Source: Zancudomyces culisetae
Taxonomy: Eukaryota > Kickxellomycota > Harpellomycetes > Harpellales > Legeriomycetaceae
DNA length: 36,139 nt
Assembly: GCA_001969505.1 (NCBI GenBank)
Contig: LSSK01000928.1
Span: forward strand, 1-36,139
Direction of reading: 5' to 3'
Shown here: piece after piece, positions 1,280 through 27,694 of the stretch
Layout of the letters: each line of letters begins with the position of its first letter
How positions within the stretch are numbered: the first letter of the stretch is position 1
Made by a program: the position numbers and the translations under genes
The notes under the pieces: generated by a model
What the model saw: the letters and a program-made list of their open reading frames with translations, nothing else
What the model was told of the DNA's origin: nothing
The model's database searches: none

Positions 1280-2869
1280 TCAATTTTTGTTTACCACCTC
1301 GTCCGCATCTAAGGATGTTTTTAATATCTCAATACACTCGTTAATTTGCGATTGCACTTTAGTCAGGGCATCAATCCTTTCGGCTATGACTTGTCTAGTT
1401 AGCGAATCGGTGGATCCAGGCTGTAGTGATGATAGGGTATTTGATAAACCATTAATACTTGCACTTGAGGAAACAGGAATTAACTGGGGATCCTTGAACT
1501 TGTAGCCAAGTATCGTCTTCCCACTTTCTGATGTGCCATGCTGTATAATTCCTCCGTTATAACCAATACCAATGTTGAACGTTGGAGAAAGATTGGGGAT
1601 AGATGCGGCCATATCACCTATATGTGAAGTACCACCGCTGGCCGCTGTTGCTCCAACACCAACCCCGATACCAGACTCATTGACCGCTGCTGCTGCTGTT
1701 GCTGGGGTTGCTCCTGTCGCTCCCGCCGTGGAACTACTGGTTGCAGCATTGGGGCTGTTGTCATGTGCCAAGTTAACTGTTTCCGAAACAGTGGCATGTG
1801 GTTTTTCAAACACACTTCTTCTACAGGTAGGGCAGCTTTGTTGTCTTGAGAGCCAGTTCTTCAAACAATTATAGTGGAAGTAGTGTCCGCAGTTTAGTTT
1901 TTTGACCCTGTCAGGCTCTTGAACATCCTCCCTACATATAATACAGACCTTGTCTCTTAAGCCGTTGATTTCATCTGCTGTTAAATCGGGGTAGAGTGTG
2001 TTTAGGTTTTTTATAGCGATATTGTATTTTGCAATCGATGTTAGTTTCATTAAAACATTTCTTGCTGTGATGTACAAATCCCTAATAAGGTGGAGAGGTA
2101 GCCCCTTCAGCTTTATCAGTATTGTAAAAATCACAATAAATATAAGTAGCCGTACTAGATCCGTTACTAATTCCACATAGAATATATACAGTGCCTTCAG
2201 CTGCCATTCTTCTTGGCTTATAGTATCGTACAGATTCATTATGAACTTAATTGTCCCTGCAAGTGCTGTAGTTAGTAACAATGGATACTCAGAGCCCGTA
2301 AGCAGCATTATTGTTACATGGTTGTCCATATGCCCGTTCCCACTCATCTTCTCCCGCATGTACCCTACGGTAAAGCTAAACATCTTGTAATCCACAAACA
2401 TCAACGTTGCTGCAAGTACCAGCACTCTAGTTATTTCTTTTTTGTCCATAATTGTTCGCTGTTCAATATACTCCATTCTTTCTTGTAACAGCCAGTGGAA
2501 AACTTTTGTGAATAACATTCCTACAACGAATATTAAGCTCAAAGGTTTAAAAGTTCCTCCGCTGAACATTGTAAAAACAAGCAGCATCTCTGACAGTGTA
2601 AACCATATCTTTTCGCTCAGCCTCTCCACCTCTATACTTCGTAGGCTGTCAAAAAATATCTTTACTACTAGTTTCCCTCCCCCTATTAATCCCAATAAAA
2701 GAACATTGGCAAGAATCAATAATGAAACCCCGCTATTCAGTTCAATACATGCTAGATAGAATTGTCGTTGTTTGGCATAAACCTTCGACACCACACCGAT
2801 GCCGAGCAAAAGGGAGGCGAGTATATATAATTTAAATCTCGTAGGCCTAAGTCTTTCCATATAATTCAT
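1280..2869 (-). CDS. HRD1: Hrd1 ER membrane RING-H2 ubiquitin ligase
   Basis: This 529-residue protein is the membrane-embedded E3 ubiquitin ligase of ER-associated degradation, which forms the retrotranslocation channel with Hrd3, Der1 and Usa1. The N-terminal half holds several hydrophobic helices between residues about 10 and 255. A complete C3H2C3 RING follows at about 309-350, with C309, C312, C327, H329, H332, C335, C346 and C349, including the CGHYFHYNCL core. The tail is rich in Ala, Ser, Thr and Gly (about 380-460) and ends in a predicted helix. The length is close to S. cerevisiae Hrd1 (551). It is intronless; the ATG at 2869 is followed by a basic residue cluster and the first membrane helix, as expected. 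The RING zinc ligands are all present, so it should be active. Confidence 0.93.
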   Translation of the reverse strand: MNYMERLRPTRFKLYILASLLLGIGVVSKVYAKQRQFYLACIELNSGVSLLILANVLLLGLIGGGKLVVKIFFDSLRSIEVERLSEKIWFTLSEMLLVFTMFSGGTFKPLSLIFVVGMLFTKVFHWLLQERMEYIEQRTIMDKKEITRVLVLAATLMFVDYKMFSFTVGYMREKMSGNGHMDNHVTIMLLTGSEYPLLLTTALAGTIKFIMNLYDTISQEEWQLKALYIFYVELVTDLVRLLIFIVIFTILIKLKGLPLHLIRDLYITARNVLMKLTSIAKYNIAIKNLNTLYPDLTADEINGLRDKVCIICREDVQEPDRVKKLNCGHYFHYNCLKNWLSRQQSCPTCRRSVFEKPHATVSETVNLAHDNSPNAATSSSTAGATGATPATAAAAVNESGIGVGVGATAASGGTSHIGDMAASIPNLSPTFNIGIGYNGGIIQHGTSESGKTILGYKFKDPQLIPVSSSASINGLSNTLSSLQPGSTDSLTRQVIAERIDALTKVQSQINECIEILKTSLDADEVVNKN

Positions 2870-13280: not shown

Positions 13281-14060
13281 ATGGTAGCACTAGGGTTTGT
13301 GGGTGATTTAAAGGACAGTGGAACACATGAAATTGTCGAGTCGATTTTGGGTCAACATGGGATTGACAGTTATATTCAAAATCTGTTTTGTTTTTTTGGG
13401 TGGCTCTTTATTCCCGTTGGCATTTTCCATGTGCTGGTGGGAAGTAGAAATAGAAGAATAACACTATTTATGATAGGGTTTATCTGGGTATTTATATTTA
13501 CATTGCAATTGTATTTTGTGGTTGTGTACTATATCAAAGATTATAGCGACCCCATTGGGTACTTTGTAGTTTTTATGATATTAACAGGTTTGGGTATAGG
13601 GATTTTATCTGCAATGTACCGAACATTTGGAAACGTGCTACTTTCAAGTTTGTTTGGGTTTTTTTTTATTTTTATCACTGACCTGGGTATACTACACTAC
13701 TTTGAGAATGCTACACACTTTGTCCATCTGATTATGATATTAGGAGCTTCTTTGATTTTCTTCCTAATTACTCTGTATGAGCGATACCAAAATGAATGCG
13801 CAAAGGTATACACATCATTTATAGGTGCTTGTGAACTGGTTTTTAGTATAGCGTACTTTTCGAGACTCAACTTTTATCCAAACCTATTAAAATCAATTCT
13901 TGTGGCCGACAGCTCAGAGTATCTTGGTGGCATTGGGGAATCTATTGCGATATATATCAGCGTTTATTTCATTACTCTAGTAGGGTATCTTGTTCAGTCA
14001 ACTCTCAAGCAACTCACATATAAAGATGTAGAATTGATTGGTCTTTACCTGGACAAGTAG
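13281..14060 (+). CDS. Seven-helix membrane protein, TMEM198/DUF4203-like
   Basis: This intronless 259-residue protein has seven strong hydrophobic segments. They lie roughly at residues 36-53, 60-85, 90-112, 115-135, 142-163, 174-194 and 221-242, with short loops and a brief soluble N-terminus. The layout and the glycine-bearing helices (GYFVVFMILTGLGIGILS) resemble the TM7SF3/TMEM198 domain family (DUF4203), whose cellular role in fungi is not established. No catalytic motif is visible. The ATG at 13281 follows an alternating TA run. The gene converges on PTC7 with a 325-base spacer. The family call is from topology and general sequence style, so moderate; an unrelated polytopic protein is possible. 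Confidence 0.8.
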   Translation: MVALGFVGDLKDSGTHEIVESILGQHGIDSYIQNLFCFFGWLFIPVGIFHVLVGSRNRRITLFMIGFIWVFIFTLQLYFVVVYYIKDYSDPIGYFVVFMILTGLGIGILSAMYRTFGNVLLSSLFGFFFIFITDLGILHYFENATHFVHLIMILGASLIFFLITLYERYQNECAKVYTSFIGACELVFSIAYFSRLNFYPNLLKSILVADSSEYLGGIGESIAIYISVYFITLVGYLVQSTLKQLTYKDVELIGLYLDK

Positions 14061-18494: not shown

Positions 18495-19604
18495 ATGGCC
18501 ATTGAGGAATCATTAGATAACTTTGAGCTGGTGCCAGCCACCACCATAGAACAAATACACGAGACTTGGTTAAGGACCCACGCCGAATGGGGTGTAGGAG
18601 TCATGGATGTGAAAACCTACCACGATAGAGAACATGTGCTTGCAAACCAGGATTTCACCGGAAAAAATATAACCATATGGCTCTATGGCGAGAAGAAGGA
18701 AAGGTTGTCAGAAACTGGCTCGTTGAATTTCAAGTCATCACTCGAAACTTTCAAGAGAAAGGCACTGATAAAACGAAAGGGGAAAAGCGAAGTCGAGGAA
18801 ATACTGTGTCATTCAATAGCCACAGTTTTCGTTCCCATATGCAATAGAGGGCATGGATACGCTAATGGTATGATTGGCGAGCTTTATAAAGCTTTGAGCA
18901 AGTTAGGCGAGGCTTCTACTCTGTACTCGGACATAGGAAGAAAGTTTTATTCAAAGTTTGGATGGGATGTTCATCCATTTGTAATAACCGATATAGAAAT
19001 ATCCGCAATAAACCAAAGCGACAAGCAAGCTACTGACACTGAGCAGTTCGTTGTGGAGCTGATAGATGAGGAGCTGGCAAAGGAAGTCGCAGAGGAAGAT
19101 TGTAAGAGACTGGCTGTACAGTTAGAAGAAATGGACTCATCACAGTCCACAAAGTTCTTAATCTTACCAGAAGTTTCTGCATACCAATGGAGATGGGCGC
19201 GGGAAAAGTTTGAGGCGGAGAAATGTTTCGGAATCGATCACAGCAATGGAAATGGCCTCAAAATATTTGGTGCAAGAATAAAAAACAGCACTAGCTTTAT
19301 TATTTGGGCTCACAAATTCAGGGAAAACAAAATGTATATTTTACGAGAGAACTGGAGTAACGAGAAGCATATAAAACCACTAATGGATGCCTGCATTGCT
19401 GAATGCAAGAAGCATAGTCTTTCAAAGATCACATCTTGGAACTTAAACCCTGCTTCCATAGCCGTCTTGGAGCGCGAGTATGGACCAGTCGCAGTCACCA
19501 GTAATACAATGCCAGAGCTATCTCTGCCCAGTTTGGCAATTTTTAACAAAGAAAAGGACGAAAAAGTTGATTGGGTACTAAACAGTGATTATGCTTGGGT
19601 ATAG
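18495..19604 (+). CDS. LYC1: Lyc1-like lysine N6-acetyltransferase (GNAT)
   Basis: This intronless 369-residue protein resembles Yarrowia LYC1, which transfers acetyl from acetyl-CoA to the side-chain amine of free L-lysine, the first step of lysine catabolism in several yeasts. The acetyl-CoA binding loop appears as RGHGYANGM at residues 118-126 after strand HSIATVFVPI. Another family stretch, LYSDIGRKFYSKFGW, follows at 143-157. The C-terminal half (SAYQWRWAREKFEAE, ITSWNLNPASIAVL) also fits the family. The length is close to Yarrowia Lyc1 (about 390). The ATG at 18495 is followed by an acidic N-terminus. It converges on NOP16 with only 36 bases between stops. An uncharacterised GNAT of other specificity is possible. 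Confidence 0.8.
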   Translation: MAIEESLDNFELVPATTIEQIHETWLRTHAEWGVGVMDVKTYHDREHVLANQDFTGKNITIWLYGEKKERLSETGSLNFKSSLETFKRKALIKRKGKSEVEEILCHSIATVFVPICNRGHGYANGMIGELYKALSKLGEASTLYSDIGRKFYSKFGWDVHPFVITDIEISAINQSDKQATDTEQFVVELIDEELAKEVAEEDCKRLAVQLEEMDSSQSTKFLILPEVSAYQWRWAREKFEAEKCFGIDHSNGNGLKIFGARIKNSTSFIIWAHKFRENKMYILRENWSNEKHIKPLMDACIAECKKHSLSKITSWNLNPASIAVLEREYGPVAVTSNTMPELSLPSLAIFNKEKDEKVDWVLNSDYAWV

Positions 19605-22884: not shown

Positions 22885-25024
22885 ATGAGCAGAGGAAGGT
22901 TTATGTTTGATGTGATAAGCGAACACAGATCAAACGAAAAAATCCTAGATGGTTTGGGTATATCATGCGAATCATCAAACCCAAGCAAAGATAGCCAACG
23001 GGAAACTGGATCAACAAAGCTTTTGTATTCAAAAAACTTCAAAAAGGTTACTATTAATGGAGTCTCACATTATGCATTTGTATCCAACTCTCGAAATGTA
23101 GATCCACTAATGCGCTCTAATTCTAACCCACATAATCAAGACCTCAGAATTCAAGAACTGTACAACCGAAGTGCCAGCCTAGCCAACACTCCTTTATCTC
23201 TTGGTTATACGGGTAGCTATTCGGGGAGTATTTACAATGAAGATACACACAGCTCTATATCAGATATGCCTTTTGGCATAAGAGAGCATCTTTATACTGG
23301 TAACAGTAATTTATTGCCATACAACCACAATTTACTGAACAATCATTATAATATAGATTCCAACTTTAGAAACTATCTGGAAAAACCTGGGTCCAGGTGG
23401 AATTTACTATGTTGTACAGATCGCTCATTTTATCAACGAGCTAGAAAAAACTGGCTGGCTATCCTTATTTCTGTAGTACACATATTTTTTTTTATCAAGT
23501 TGGTGTACTTTAACACAATTGTTTCCAACAGACTCCTACACAAAACATCTGACACTAACATTATGTTTTTCAGACCCGAGGTAAGTTTATTTACTCTTTA
23601 TTTAACTACAAAAGCCTGTAGAACGTACAATGTGTCGTTTTTTTTTTTTTGCAAACTAGTACCTATAAAAGCAAATGAGTATGCTCTGGTAGTTTAGGAT
23701 GTACAAAATTAATGTGCTATTCCTCTTTTTTTTTGAGCTTTTTTTACTTCTTGAAAAGAATTAGCAAGATAATTTAAAAAGCGTTTCAACTGAACATTAA
23801 CCAAAAAATTTATAGACACTTGTTGCTGCCGGATCAGTGTTTGCTCCTTGTATGCGTGTTTCAACATTTTCAAACAAATCACAATTGCCATGCCCTGTTG
23901 TTTTTAATGAAGTACATGCAAAAAACTCGACACGACCACTAGATATATTTTGCAATATAGATTCATACTGTAGCCTGTTACAACATATTAAAAAAAACGA
24001 TACCACCAACACAAGCATTAAAGATACACTCACGGTTAAAAAAAAAATCGGTGACCTGGATTTCAAATACCAAAGTGGTAGATTTATCTACGGCATGATA
24101 ATTCCCTCTGGTCTTGTACAGCTAATTTTTATATTGATAGTAAATCTAACAGTTTTCATTGAAGTGCAGAAGCGGATCGGATCACTAATAACGTTGTTTG
24201 TGTATCTGTATTCTGGTATTACAGGATATCTATTTGCAGCAAATTATCTGTCAACAATAGCTGTAATCACGGGCCCAGTTCCATCTGCTTTTGGAATTTA
24301 CACTACTTACTTGATGTTATTTGCAAAAGACGTATTAATGGACTCCAGTAAAAACAACTATATGTTCAAGATGATTCCTTTTAAGGGAGTGGGCAGAAAA
24401 AACAACCACTACAAAGAACTAAATCCGCAATATACTAGGTTTTTTATTTATTTGCTGTTGATGGTTTTGTATGCTCTATCGCCGTTTTCATACTTTCTGT
24501 TGGTGATAGGTGGAATGGTTGGTGGGTTATTTTCAGTTTTGTTTGTCATTATCTGGGTAGGTGCCAACGATAGCAGTTGGAAAAAAAACGAGTCGGATAC
24601 CAATGATGTACATGTAGGAGCACTTCTACATACGGACAGTAGACATGATGTAGAGGATTTAAACTATGTCGCAGCGCATGGAAGTACTCAGTTAAATCTA
24701 ATTACTGGAAACAATGGCGATACGCCAAGTAAATATCTGAAGGCATATTCAAAGAATGTTAATACTGTTTCGGATAGACGACAGCTTATTCTAAAGGTAC
24801 TTATCAGAACAATGGTGTTTATCTCGCTACCACTTTATATTTGGTGTCTATACCATTCCTTTAAAAACAGACATATTTCAGGTCTACAGAAGCTGTATGG
24901 AGACAGAGTCACACCACACTATCAAAAAAGCCTGGAATTTGCAGAGTGTAGAGGTGCAAGTGGTTTATTGCGTTGGGCTATTGAGTATTTATCAGCAATA
25001 TGTGGAAAACAGAGTGCAGTTTAG
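22885..25024 (+). CDS. Rhomboid-fold pseudoprotease, iRhom-like, two exons
   Basis: Exons 22885-23580 and 23816-25024, joined in phase 0 across a 235-base GTAAGT...TATAG intron, give 634 residues. The order of parts matches large fungal rhomboids. A hydrophilic cytoplasmic N-terminus (about 185 residues) is followed by one helix at about 190-212, then a Cys-bearing lumenal loop (VFAPCM, LPCPV, FCNIDSYC). The multi-helix rhomboid core starts near 320. The active-site GxSx motif is replaced by GPVPSAFG at 385-392, with Val at the serine position. The histidine of the usual HIGG in helix 6 is Val in VIGG at 462-465. Both catalytic residues are therefore missing, as in metazoan iRhoms, which bind and route client membrane proteins. 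The helices look intact and it is not truncated. Loss may be lineage-specific; function is inferred only. Confidence 0.85.
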
Positions 25025-25440: not shown

Positions 25441-27694
25441 TTACACTGCTATGTTCTTGTTTTCATCAGTGGCCTCCAAGCATACAAGAGGAACAACGCC
25501 CATTTCCTGCTTGTCTACATTTTTAGCATAAGCCCAGCCATCAGAAAACACATTGAGAATCTTTATCTCGTCATTCAACGTTAATAGCAACTCGTCTTTT
25601 TCTTGAGGAAAGTATGCATATGCCACCTTATACGTCTTTCCTGTGCAGTCATCTTTTGTGATGTGATCATCACTGTTACTACATGTTTCAAAGGAGTCAG
25701 AGTTTGTACTGATACTTCGTGTTGAAGAATAGCTTGAATCGGTTACAGAAATTATGCTATTTCTATTCACTAATACCCTGGGTTGCCCTTTAAACTGTAC
25801 TAAACCATTTGTATTTTGTGTATATGTATTCGAATTCACACAATTGGATGAGGTGGACGCGCTGGGATTTTCTTCATTGTGTATTACACCCTTGTTGTTA
25901 TCGTTATCATTACCATTACCATTATCATGTGAAACAGTGGGAATATCGTTGTTAAGAAAGTTGTATATCGTTCCCTCTGTATTACTAACAAGCGCTGGAT
26001 TAAATGTAGTATATGTTTGAATGCTATTTTTTCTAGTACTACCATAGCTGGTCCTAGCATTCATATTTGAGCTTACATCAAAATCACTATCGTGTAATCT
26101 TCCAGTACCTACTGCTTGGTTATTATCAACCTCCATCTCTAACACGCTCTCTTTTTTCTTTTCACTATACCCCTTTCCAATATCCGAAGATAGTTCTAAA
26201 AAACTGGAGTCAAACGTATCCTTAAAAGTCAAAACGTTATCTAAAACATTCAAACTTTTGTGGGACTTTTCAGCTTCAACCCTGAAATTGGGCCCAGAAA
26301 TTTTGGTATCACTACATTCAGGATCAACTGGGTTTGTAGATTTTTTAATAGTGGCTTGCAGGTTGGTATATTCCCTATCCATTTCTTTGTTGTTCACTTC
26401 ATAGTTTTCAAATTTTTTAAGTGTAGAATACATGCTAATTGTCTTTTCCAGCCGCGGAAACTCGAGAACAGGTGTTTTGAAAGATTCGTCAATTGGCTTG
26501 TTTTCATTTATAGAAGAAAACTTGGGGTTAACAGTAGATGCGGTAAACCTTCTGTAGAATTTAGTTAGAGGCTTTTCCACAAAATTCATATCGGGGTTTA
26601 TGCTGCGTGTGGTTTCTGCTTCATAGCTGGATCTTTTCTCGTGTAGTTTGTCGTCTCCAAAATAGTTTTCTTCTAACTTTCTGTTGAGGTTTCTAAGTGC
26701 TCTCTGTTTTTTCATCATGCAGCCAAAAACTAACATTGCAACCACCAACATTGTTGCCAATATGGAGATAACTATGTTTTTTATGACTTCACTACCGCTC
26801 TTTGAGGGGATACTACATTTCCCTGTTGTGAATGCCCATATACAACAAGTATCAGTTGGATTGCTATTACAGGTCTTACAGAGTTCCTCTTCGTTGGAGT
26901 ATTTTCCATCTATTTAATTAAAAAGTTAGTCATAAGTAAAATTTGAGGGAGTAAAGCAAAATATCTAGTGTTAGCTCGAGAAGATTGGGATCACAAAAAT
27001 GTGTTTATATATCACAAGTTATTAAACCAGGTTTACCACATGGAGAAGCATCAGTAATGCGTAGGCTCAGGCAGCTATCACTTTCTCCATTGTACGGGCT
27101 ACTGGAGCACGTTTTCTGTGTACTTTCTAGTCCACCGATCATATTTGAGTTATTTTTACAGCTGTTGCTGTTCGCCAGAATCTTGGTCCAGGCACCTATG
27201 TAGTTGTAACACGAATCTTTACATATTTTTATGGCTTCATTTCGATTACACTCTCTGGCTGCACTGGTATCAAGAAGCCCTCTACAGATAACATCTGTTC
27301 TTCCTGAGACTGTTTCAAAGCCATAAATATCTTTACACCCAAATGCACTCTGTAGATTTTCCCTTTCAGCTGTAGAGTTGAAATATTGCAAAAAAACCCC
27401 ATCAAATTCATTAGAGTTACGGATCGAGTTTTCGCGTATGTTATTTATAGGAAAGTAAAAGTTGCCAAAGCTGGCACCGCAAAATTTAGAATTGCTTAAA
27501 GGAAAACACTTTTGAGATACATTGCCTCCAGCTGGGGTAATGTTGTTGCTAAGAGGGGGTTTTATTCCCCCAACACCTAACTTGTCAATAAAATATAACA
27601 GATCGCTGGATATTATATCTGAACCAAGCGCTGAAGTGCCAACTAGCACCATCAATGACACAACAGATGCTTTCACACTTTGTGTCTTTGTCAT
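25441..27694 (-). CDS. Single-pass membrane protein, Cys-rich ectodomain and Fus1-like SH3
   Basis: Exons 27694-27037 and 26909-25441 join across a 127-base intron (donor GTAAAC, branch GACTAAC, acceptor AATAG), giving 708 residues. A signal peptide (residues 1 to about 25) precedes an ectodomain with more than a dozen cysteines and several N-glycosylation sites. It includes QKCFPLSNSKFCG, CRGLLDTSAARECN and, after the junction, ELCKTCNSN...DTCC. A membrane helix at about 265-287 (IVISILATMLVVAMLVFG) is followed by a basic stop and a long Ser/Thr/Asn-rich cytoplasmic region. The C-terminus is an SH3 domain (KTYKVAYAYFPQEKDELLL, DGWAYAKN, MGVVPLVCLE). The SH3 resembles that of Fus1, the mating-fusion scaffold, but Fus1 of S. 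cerevisiae has only a short, mucin-like exterior. The role could be cell-surface sensing or fusion; this is inference. Confidence 0.85.
26910..27036 (-). other. Intron in the SH3 membrane protein gene
   Basis: Donor GTAAAC at 27036, branch GACTAAC about 20 bases before the AATAG acceptor ending at 26910. The junction codon becomes GAT and links two Cys-rich parts. Without splicing the ectodomain would stop about ten residues later, before the membrane helix, giving a secreted form. Confidence 0.8.

Follow-up and report, generated by a model that had tools for sequence, protein, structure and literature searches.

A candidate rhomboid pseudoprotease of the fungal secretase class in the genome of Zancudomyces culisetae

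Known rhomboid pseudoproteases and a fungal candidate

The pseudoproteases of the rhomboid fold that have been discussed are mainly the iRhoms of animals and the Derlin, Dsc2 and UBAC2 types. Such proteins are described as retaining the recognition of transmembrane (TM) helices and the thinning of the membrane (PMC11555709). According to Zettl et al. (2011, PMC3149277), the iRhoms are restricted to metazoans and stand out by three traits: an N-terminus of much greater length, a large loop domain that is conserved, and GPx where GxS would be expected. In yeast, Dsc2 senses helix length for degradation at the Golgi (PMC11513148) and the Derlin Dfm1 requires a WR motif, where Der1 has G-R with no apparent loss (PMC12615303). 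A survey of fungal serine proteases sorts the rhomboids into homologues of Pcp1, of Rbd2 and of C. elegans ROM-1 and states that likely inactive homologues were dismissed (PMC5567314), so that proteins like the one described here could have been filtered out there. We have analysed contig LSSK01000928.1 of Zancudomyces culisetae over 36,139 nucleotides (the window), focussing on a gene on the forward strand (22885-25024) with one intron, whose predicted product of 634 amino acids we call the window protein. It appears to be a member of the fungal secretase class that has lost its catalysis, which would represent another origin of pseudoproteases; among the matches listed in the full-text, open-licence literature we found no description of such a protein.

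The rhomboid nature of this protein, as originally predicted, was borne out by comparison with fungal relatives. A composite query gave 1776 proteins at E<=0.001, of which the best 120, a set without any close yeast relative, were used for the profile and all column counts; those with names we take to be Pezizomycotina, many rows being nameless. Against this profile the window protein scored 57.6 bits, whereas 500 local shuffles, of which 363 gave a score, did not exceed 8.6 bits; the reversed sequence scored -2.7 and the Pcp1 of the same genome 17.5. The Pfam family PF01694 matched it with 10.1 bits only. The best sequence match found was to the fungal rhomboid proteases that are neither Pcp1 nor Rbd2 (e.g., Neurospora crassa Q9HEF8, P0082), with which it has in common TM1, the Cys loop, the rhomboid core, TM7, a long N-terminus, the four loop cysteines and the glycines of TM6. 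Identity to 24 aligned fungal relatives was 23-29%, and exon 2 matched the 120 with 19.0-40.0 bits (median 31.8). With a similarity across TM1, the loop and the core that exceeds the controls, the window protein would be placed in the fungal ROM-1-like lineage, to which both the gene and the 120 relatives are taken to belong by elimination, the set of comparisons being without a ROM-1 sequence.

Regarding the fold, hydropathy picked five segments (residues 191-209, 331-349, 356-374, 460-478 and 556-574) and passed over TM4 and TM5, which the predicted core model shows as helices; the two combined suggest seven membrane helices. The predicted models were best matched by rhomboids and iRhoms in VIA-align, iRhom1 being the top row in both comparisons, tied with GlpG. 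These rows are a realignment of Foldseek candidates (121 and 91 chains), which leaves room for other families, and no Derlin structure was among them. Foldseek alone gave no significant match for either model, the proteins listed being unrelated.

Replacement of the active site

All five active-site positions, i.e., the columns of H, H and N in TM2, Ser in TM4 and His in TM6 among the 120 relatives, are replaced in the window protein (Table 1), and in this it differs from the proteases of its class. The loss of both catalytic residues had been predicted, and the finding is stronger than that, as the TM2 residues are gone too. The proposed change of HIGG to VIGG was right in that the TM6 His is lost, but the MAFFT alignment, with a gap of four residues, places the His column on Y458, and only with the gap closed does it fall on V462; neither is a His. 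Judged from sequence, the protein would not be an active rhomboid protease (MEROPS S54), which has the Ser in TM4 and the His in TM6. It would rather qualify as a rhomboid pseudoprotease, whose fold is known to us from predicted models.

Table 1. Features of the window gene and other rhomboid genes of the genome
Feature	Position	Strand	Description
Exon 1	22885..23580	+	Putative cytosolic N-terminus (residues 1-189), TM1 (ca. 191-209) and start of the lumenal loop; open frame, hydropathy
RSNSNP	23113..23130	+	Residues 77-82, N-terminus; candidate site, matching the 14-3-3 mode I consensus
Intron	23581..23815	+	Predicted; 235 bp, GTAAGT...TTATAG, phase 0
Exon 2	23816..25024	+	Remaining lumenal loop, TM2-TM6, cytosolic loop, TM7, C-terminal tail, stop; single open frame, 402 codons + stop
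Loop cysteines	23849..23971	+	C244, C258, C278, C284 (first to last codon); Cys in 120/120 relatives at all four columns
TM2 active-site surroundings	24104..24133	+	P329, Q334 and I338, where 120/120 relatives have H, H and N
GPVP	24272..24283	+	Residues 385-388, replacing GxSG (GASG); catalytic Ser column is V387, after P386; S in 120/120 relatives
TM6 catalytic His region	24491..24514	+	Y458 ... V462 I G G; G464, G465, G469 kept
TM7	24785..24841	+	Residues 556-574; hydropathy; in the structural alignment with iRhom1 the exon-2 model is covered up to its residue 353, within TM7 or beyond it
GASG string	24953-24964	+	Residues 612-615, C-terminal tail after TM7; probably chance
Rbd2 (L003)			GISG, GHLTG; Ser and His kept
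Pcp1/Rbd1 (L001/L002)			GASG, HLGG; Ser and His kept
Second Pcp1-like gene (L004)			SLGSSG, HIGG; Ser and His kept

An error in the gene model could in principle simulate such a loss, or the protein might still cleave with an active site of unusual make-up, and we consider this highly improbable. The splicing was read from the sequence, and the intron has no TACTAAC box. However, all five positions lie within one uninterrupted exon, and the single His between residues 290 and 497 is H430, in the loop between TM4 and TM5. An exon structure restoring Ser and His, which would have spoken against the original prediction, gained no support, no HxGG being found in the three frames of the + strand. 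A relocated active site was rejected on the same grounds, with the lone GASG sitting beyond TM7 and the lone TM2-TM6 His being that of the loop. The intron and the gene coordinates stood as they had been given, GPVPSAFG corresponding to residues 385-392 and VIGG to 462-465. The alignment to the fungal profile starts at residue 178, inside exon 1, and the homology crosses from exon 1 (TM1) into exon 2, which supports the splice junction; the GTAAGT donor was read also in two introns of RBD2 in the same genome.

Conserved residues retained include the four loop cysteines, R321, N375, G464, G465 and G469. Of the other near-invariant columns (at least 118 of the 120 relatives, window-protein residues 186-480) only 33 out of 79 were kept, so that the loss of the catalytic residues, although complete, does not stand out statistically in a protein this divergent. 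This low figure would suit a gene in decay, which has dropped its protease function and whose frame is still open by chance, as would the failure of the protein's own queries to find relatives: of 3057 candidates for residues 180-490 none reached E<=0.001, and of 32 for residues 318-421 none reached E<=10, although in these searches by 5-residue words distant relatives can escape and the absence is weak evidence. We believe decay to be very unlikely, with 634 codons free of stops, plausible splice sites and all four cysteines in place, and because unconstrained divergence down to 23-29% identity should have broken the frame.

Parallels with iRhoms and yeast pseudoproteases

Like iRhom1 and iRhom2, the window protein would combine a dead rhomboid core, seven helices, a long cytosolic N-terminus and a Pro just before the lost Ser. 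The last of these, the Pro after the first Gly, was rightly seen beforehand as an iRhom trait and is a true parallel: GPVPSAFG aligns with GPAGSQFG of iRhom1, with G385, P386 and V387 opposite its GPA, i.e., the GPx-for-GxS feature is present. A Pro before the Ser is described as abolishing the activity of Drosophila Rhomboid-1, strongly reducing that of mouse RHBDL2 and virtually abolishing that of bacterial AarA (Zettl et al., 2011, PMC3149277), and the common Pro hints at a preferred route of inactivation. The rest of the iRhom-like reading, based on the long N-terminus and the Cys loop, is weaker, as both are ordinary for the fungal class. Exactly four loop cysteines were found in 96 of the 98 parseable relatives (of 120), as in the window protein, and the TM1 motif starts at a median residue of 176 in 101 of the 120 (those above 480 amino acids and with the motif), compared with 201 here. 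Being common in protease-type relatives, these traits are not informative for iRhom membership. The four cysteines of the loop, the fungal number, make an iRhom homology domain doubtful, although this is a count and not a direct comparison of domains.

The iRhoms were the only sequence matches of exon 2 in the PDB. By phmmer, iRhom1 scored 18.5 bits, about equal to the lowest fungal score (19.0), and the match covers only query positions 90-170, outside the loop. Unlike the iRhoms, the window protein belongs to a fungus, has the fungal type of four loop cysteines, scores lower against iRhom1 than against almost every one of the 120 relatives and has no known client of the ADAM17 type. An independently evolved or a shared pseudoprotease had both been envisaged in the original prediction; a shared origin with the iRhoms does not appear to be supported by these scores, which are not a tree, fungal relatives scoring higher. 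An independent loss in the fungal lineage, with a convergent Pro, would be the simplest reading.

An escort of the iRhom type, that is, a regulated carrier taking its client from the endoplasmic reticulum (ER) to the Golgi or the surface under the control of 14-3-3 on the N-terminus, seems unlikely to us. It would fit the Pro exactly at the iRhom position and the top structural row of iRhom1, tied with GlpG as it is, and could also draw on RSNSNP. Among 20000 shuffled versions of the N-terminus 287 contain a 14-3-3-like match, as do 2 of 100 parsed fungal relatives, and the pattern was one of seven tried, which counts against it and makes this a weak lead. Phosphorylation and the recruitment of 14-3-3 are described as driving iRhom2-stimulated shedding (PMC6451368), but iRhoms are presented as metazoan only (PMC3149277), the N-terminus and the cysteines are those of the fungal class, and no client is known. 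Quite improbable, in our opinion, is the bolder version in which fungi made their own iRhom, a secretase-type protease becoming a client carrier controlled by phosphorylation and 14-3-3, independently of animals and by way of the same inactivating Pro.

The original prediction knew of no studied example in budding yeast, which holds for the iRhom type only, as it overlooked Der1, Dfm1 and Dsc2. The window protein resembles these in being a non-catalytic rhomboid fold, presumably in a fungal secretory membrane. It differs from them in its Cys loop, in the lack of an SHP box (by regular expression) and in giving no match to DER1 or UBA, so that it apparently represents another lineage. Both Pfam results are weak tests: DER1 (PF04511) was absent at E<=10 from either exon, where filters drop weak matches and PF01694 itself reaches 10.1 bits, and UBA, a domain of S. 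pombe Dsc2, was unmatched at E<=1, where the rhomboid core itself is hardly seen; besides, budding-yeast Dsc2 is also described as having no UBA domain (PMC11555709). A quality-control adaptor of the Dfm1 or Dsc2 kind, which thins the bilayer and helps to extract misfolded or orphaned membrane proteins for proteasomal degradation, is a possible but doubtful role. Der1, Dfm1 and Dsc2 are all described as acting in membrane-protein quality control (PMC12615303, PMC11513148, PMC11555709), the genome encodes Hrd1 and derlins, and the juxtamembrane Arg that precedes TM2 is retained (G320-R321), G-R being found also in the working yeast Der1 (PMC12615303). Yet the motif and domains just mentioned were not found by these tests, the genome already has derlins, at separate loci, and the Cys loop and TM7 agree with membership of the secretase class.

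What we consider probable is that the window protein is a catalytically dead descendant of a fungal non-mitochondrial protease of the ROM-1-like "secretase" type, acting as a non-proteolytic binder of client TM helices in the ER or Golgi. It would sit in the membrane of one of these compartments, its N-terminus facing the cytosol and its Cys loop the lumen. There it may bind a client TM helix without cleaving it and then hand over the client, to be transported or else to be extracted and degraded, by analogy with iRhoms, Dfm1 and Dsc2. It would probably act on its clients directly and not as the decoy of an active copy. If so, it would provide a simple genetic system for asking what the rhomboid fold does without catalysis.

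Other rhomboid genes and the neighbourhood

The genome (23.1 Mb, 859 contigs) was searched for rhomboid genes. Those found, Rbd2 and Pcp1/Rbd1, belong to the same superfamily as the window protein but keep Ser and His, as does a second Pcp1-like gene. The Neurospora protein matched only the window gene and the Pcp1 pair, and PF01694 only Pcp1, the Pcp1-like gene and Rbd2. Thus neither search revealed a protease-type sister of the window gene; each missed one known rhomboid gene, yet a sister should score well in one of them. With no protease of the same class found, a simple role as inhibitor or decoy is disfavoured and direct binding of clients is favoured.

When the genome was searched for further copies or alleles of the window gene, only the window itself matched. 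By contrast, three pairs of contigs with equal scores (C266/C723, C131/C587 and C95/C469) carry Pcp1, RNA polymerase subunit and derlin loci, the Pcp1 proteins being almost identical, which suggests partly uncollapsed alleles. RBD2 and the second PCP1-like gene appear to carry several introns each, more than is usual for genes of budding yeasts. The best-scoring chains for eS19 and Nop16 are 9axt and 8esq, both from fission yeast, and the other of two Nop16 matches is 8i9p, from Chaetomium; taken together with the introns, these scores render doubtful the budding yeast of the original prediction. The 49 kDa subunit of complex I is encoded, with PDB scores that do not discriminate, and U1_yeast gave no match in a search run without a positive control; the RNA polymerase loci played no part in this assessment.

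Elsewhere in the window, a ubiquitin ligase of the Hrd1/synoviolin type, with an N-terminal SYVN1 domain and a RING finger (Pfam), is encoded at 1280-2869 (-). A membrane protein of the TM7S3/TM198 family lies at 13281-14060 and a LYC1-like acetyltransferase at 18495-19604. At 25441-27694 (-) there is a Cys-rich, secreted-looking frame (27005-27694) followed by an SH3 frame with a hydrophobic start (25441-26751, Pfam), and the two may be one gene.
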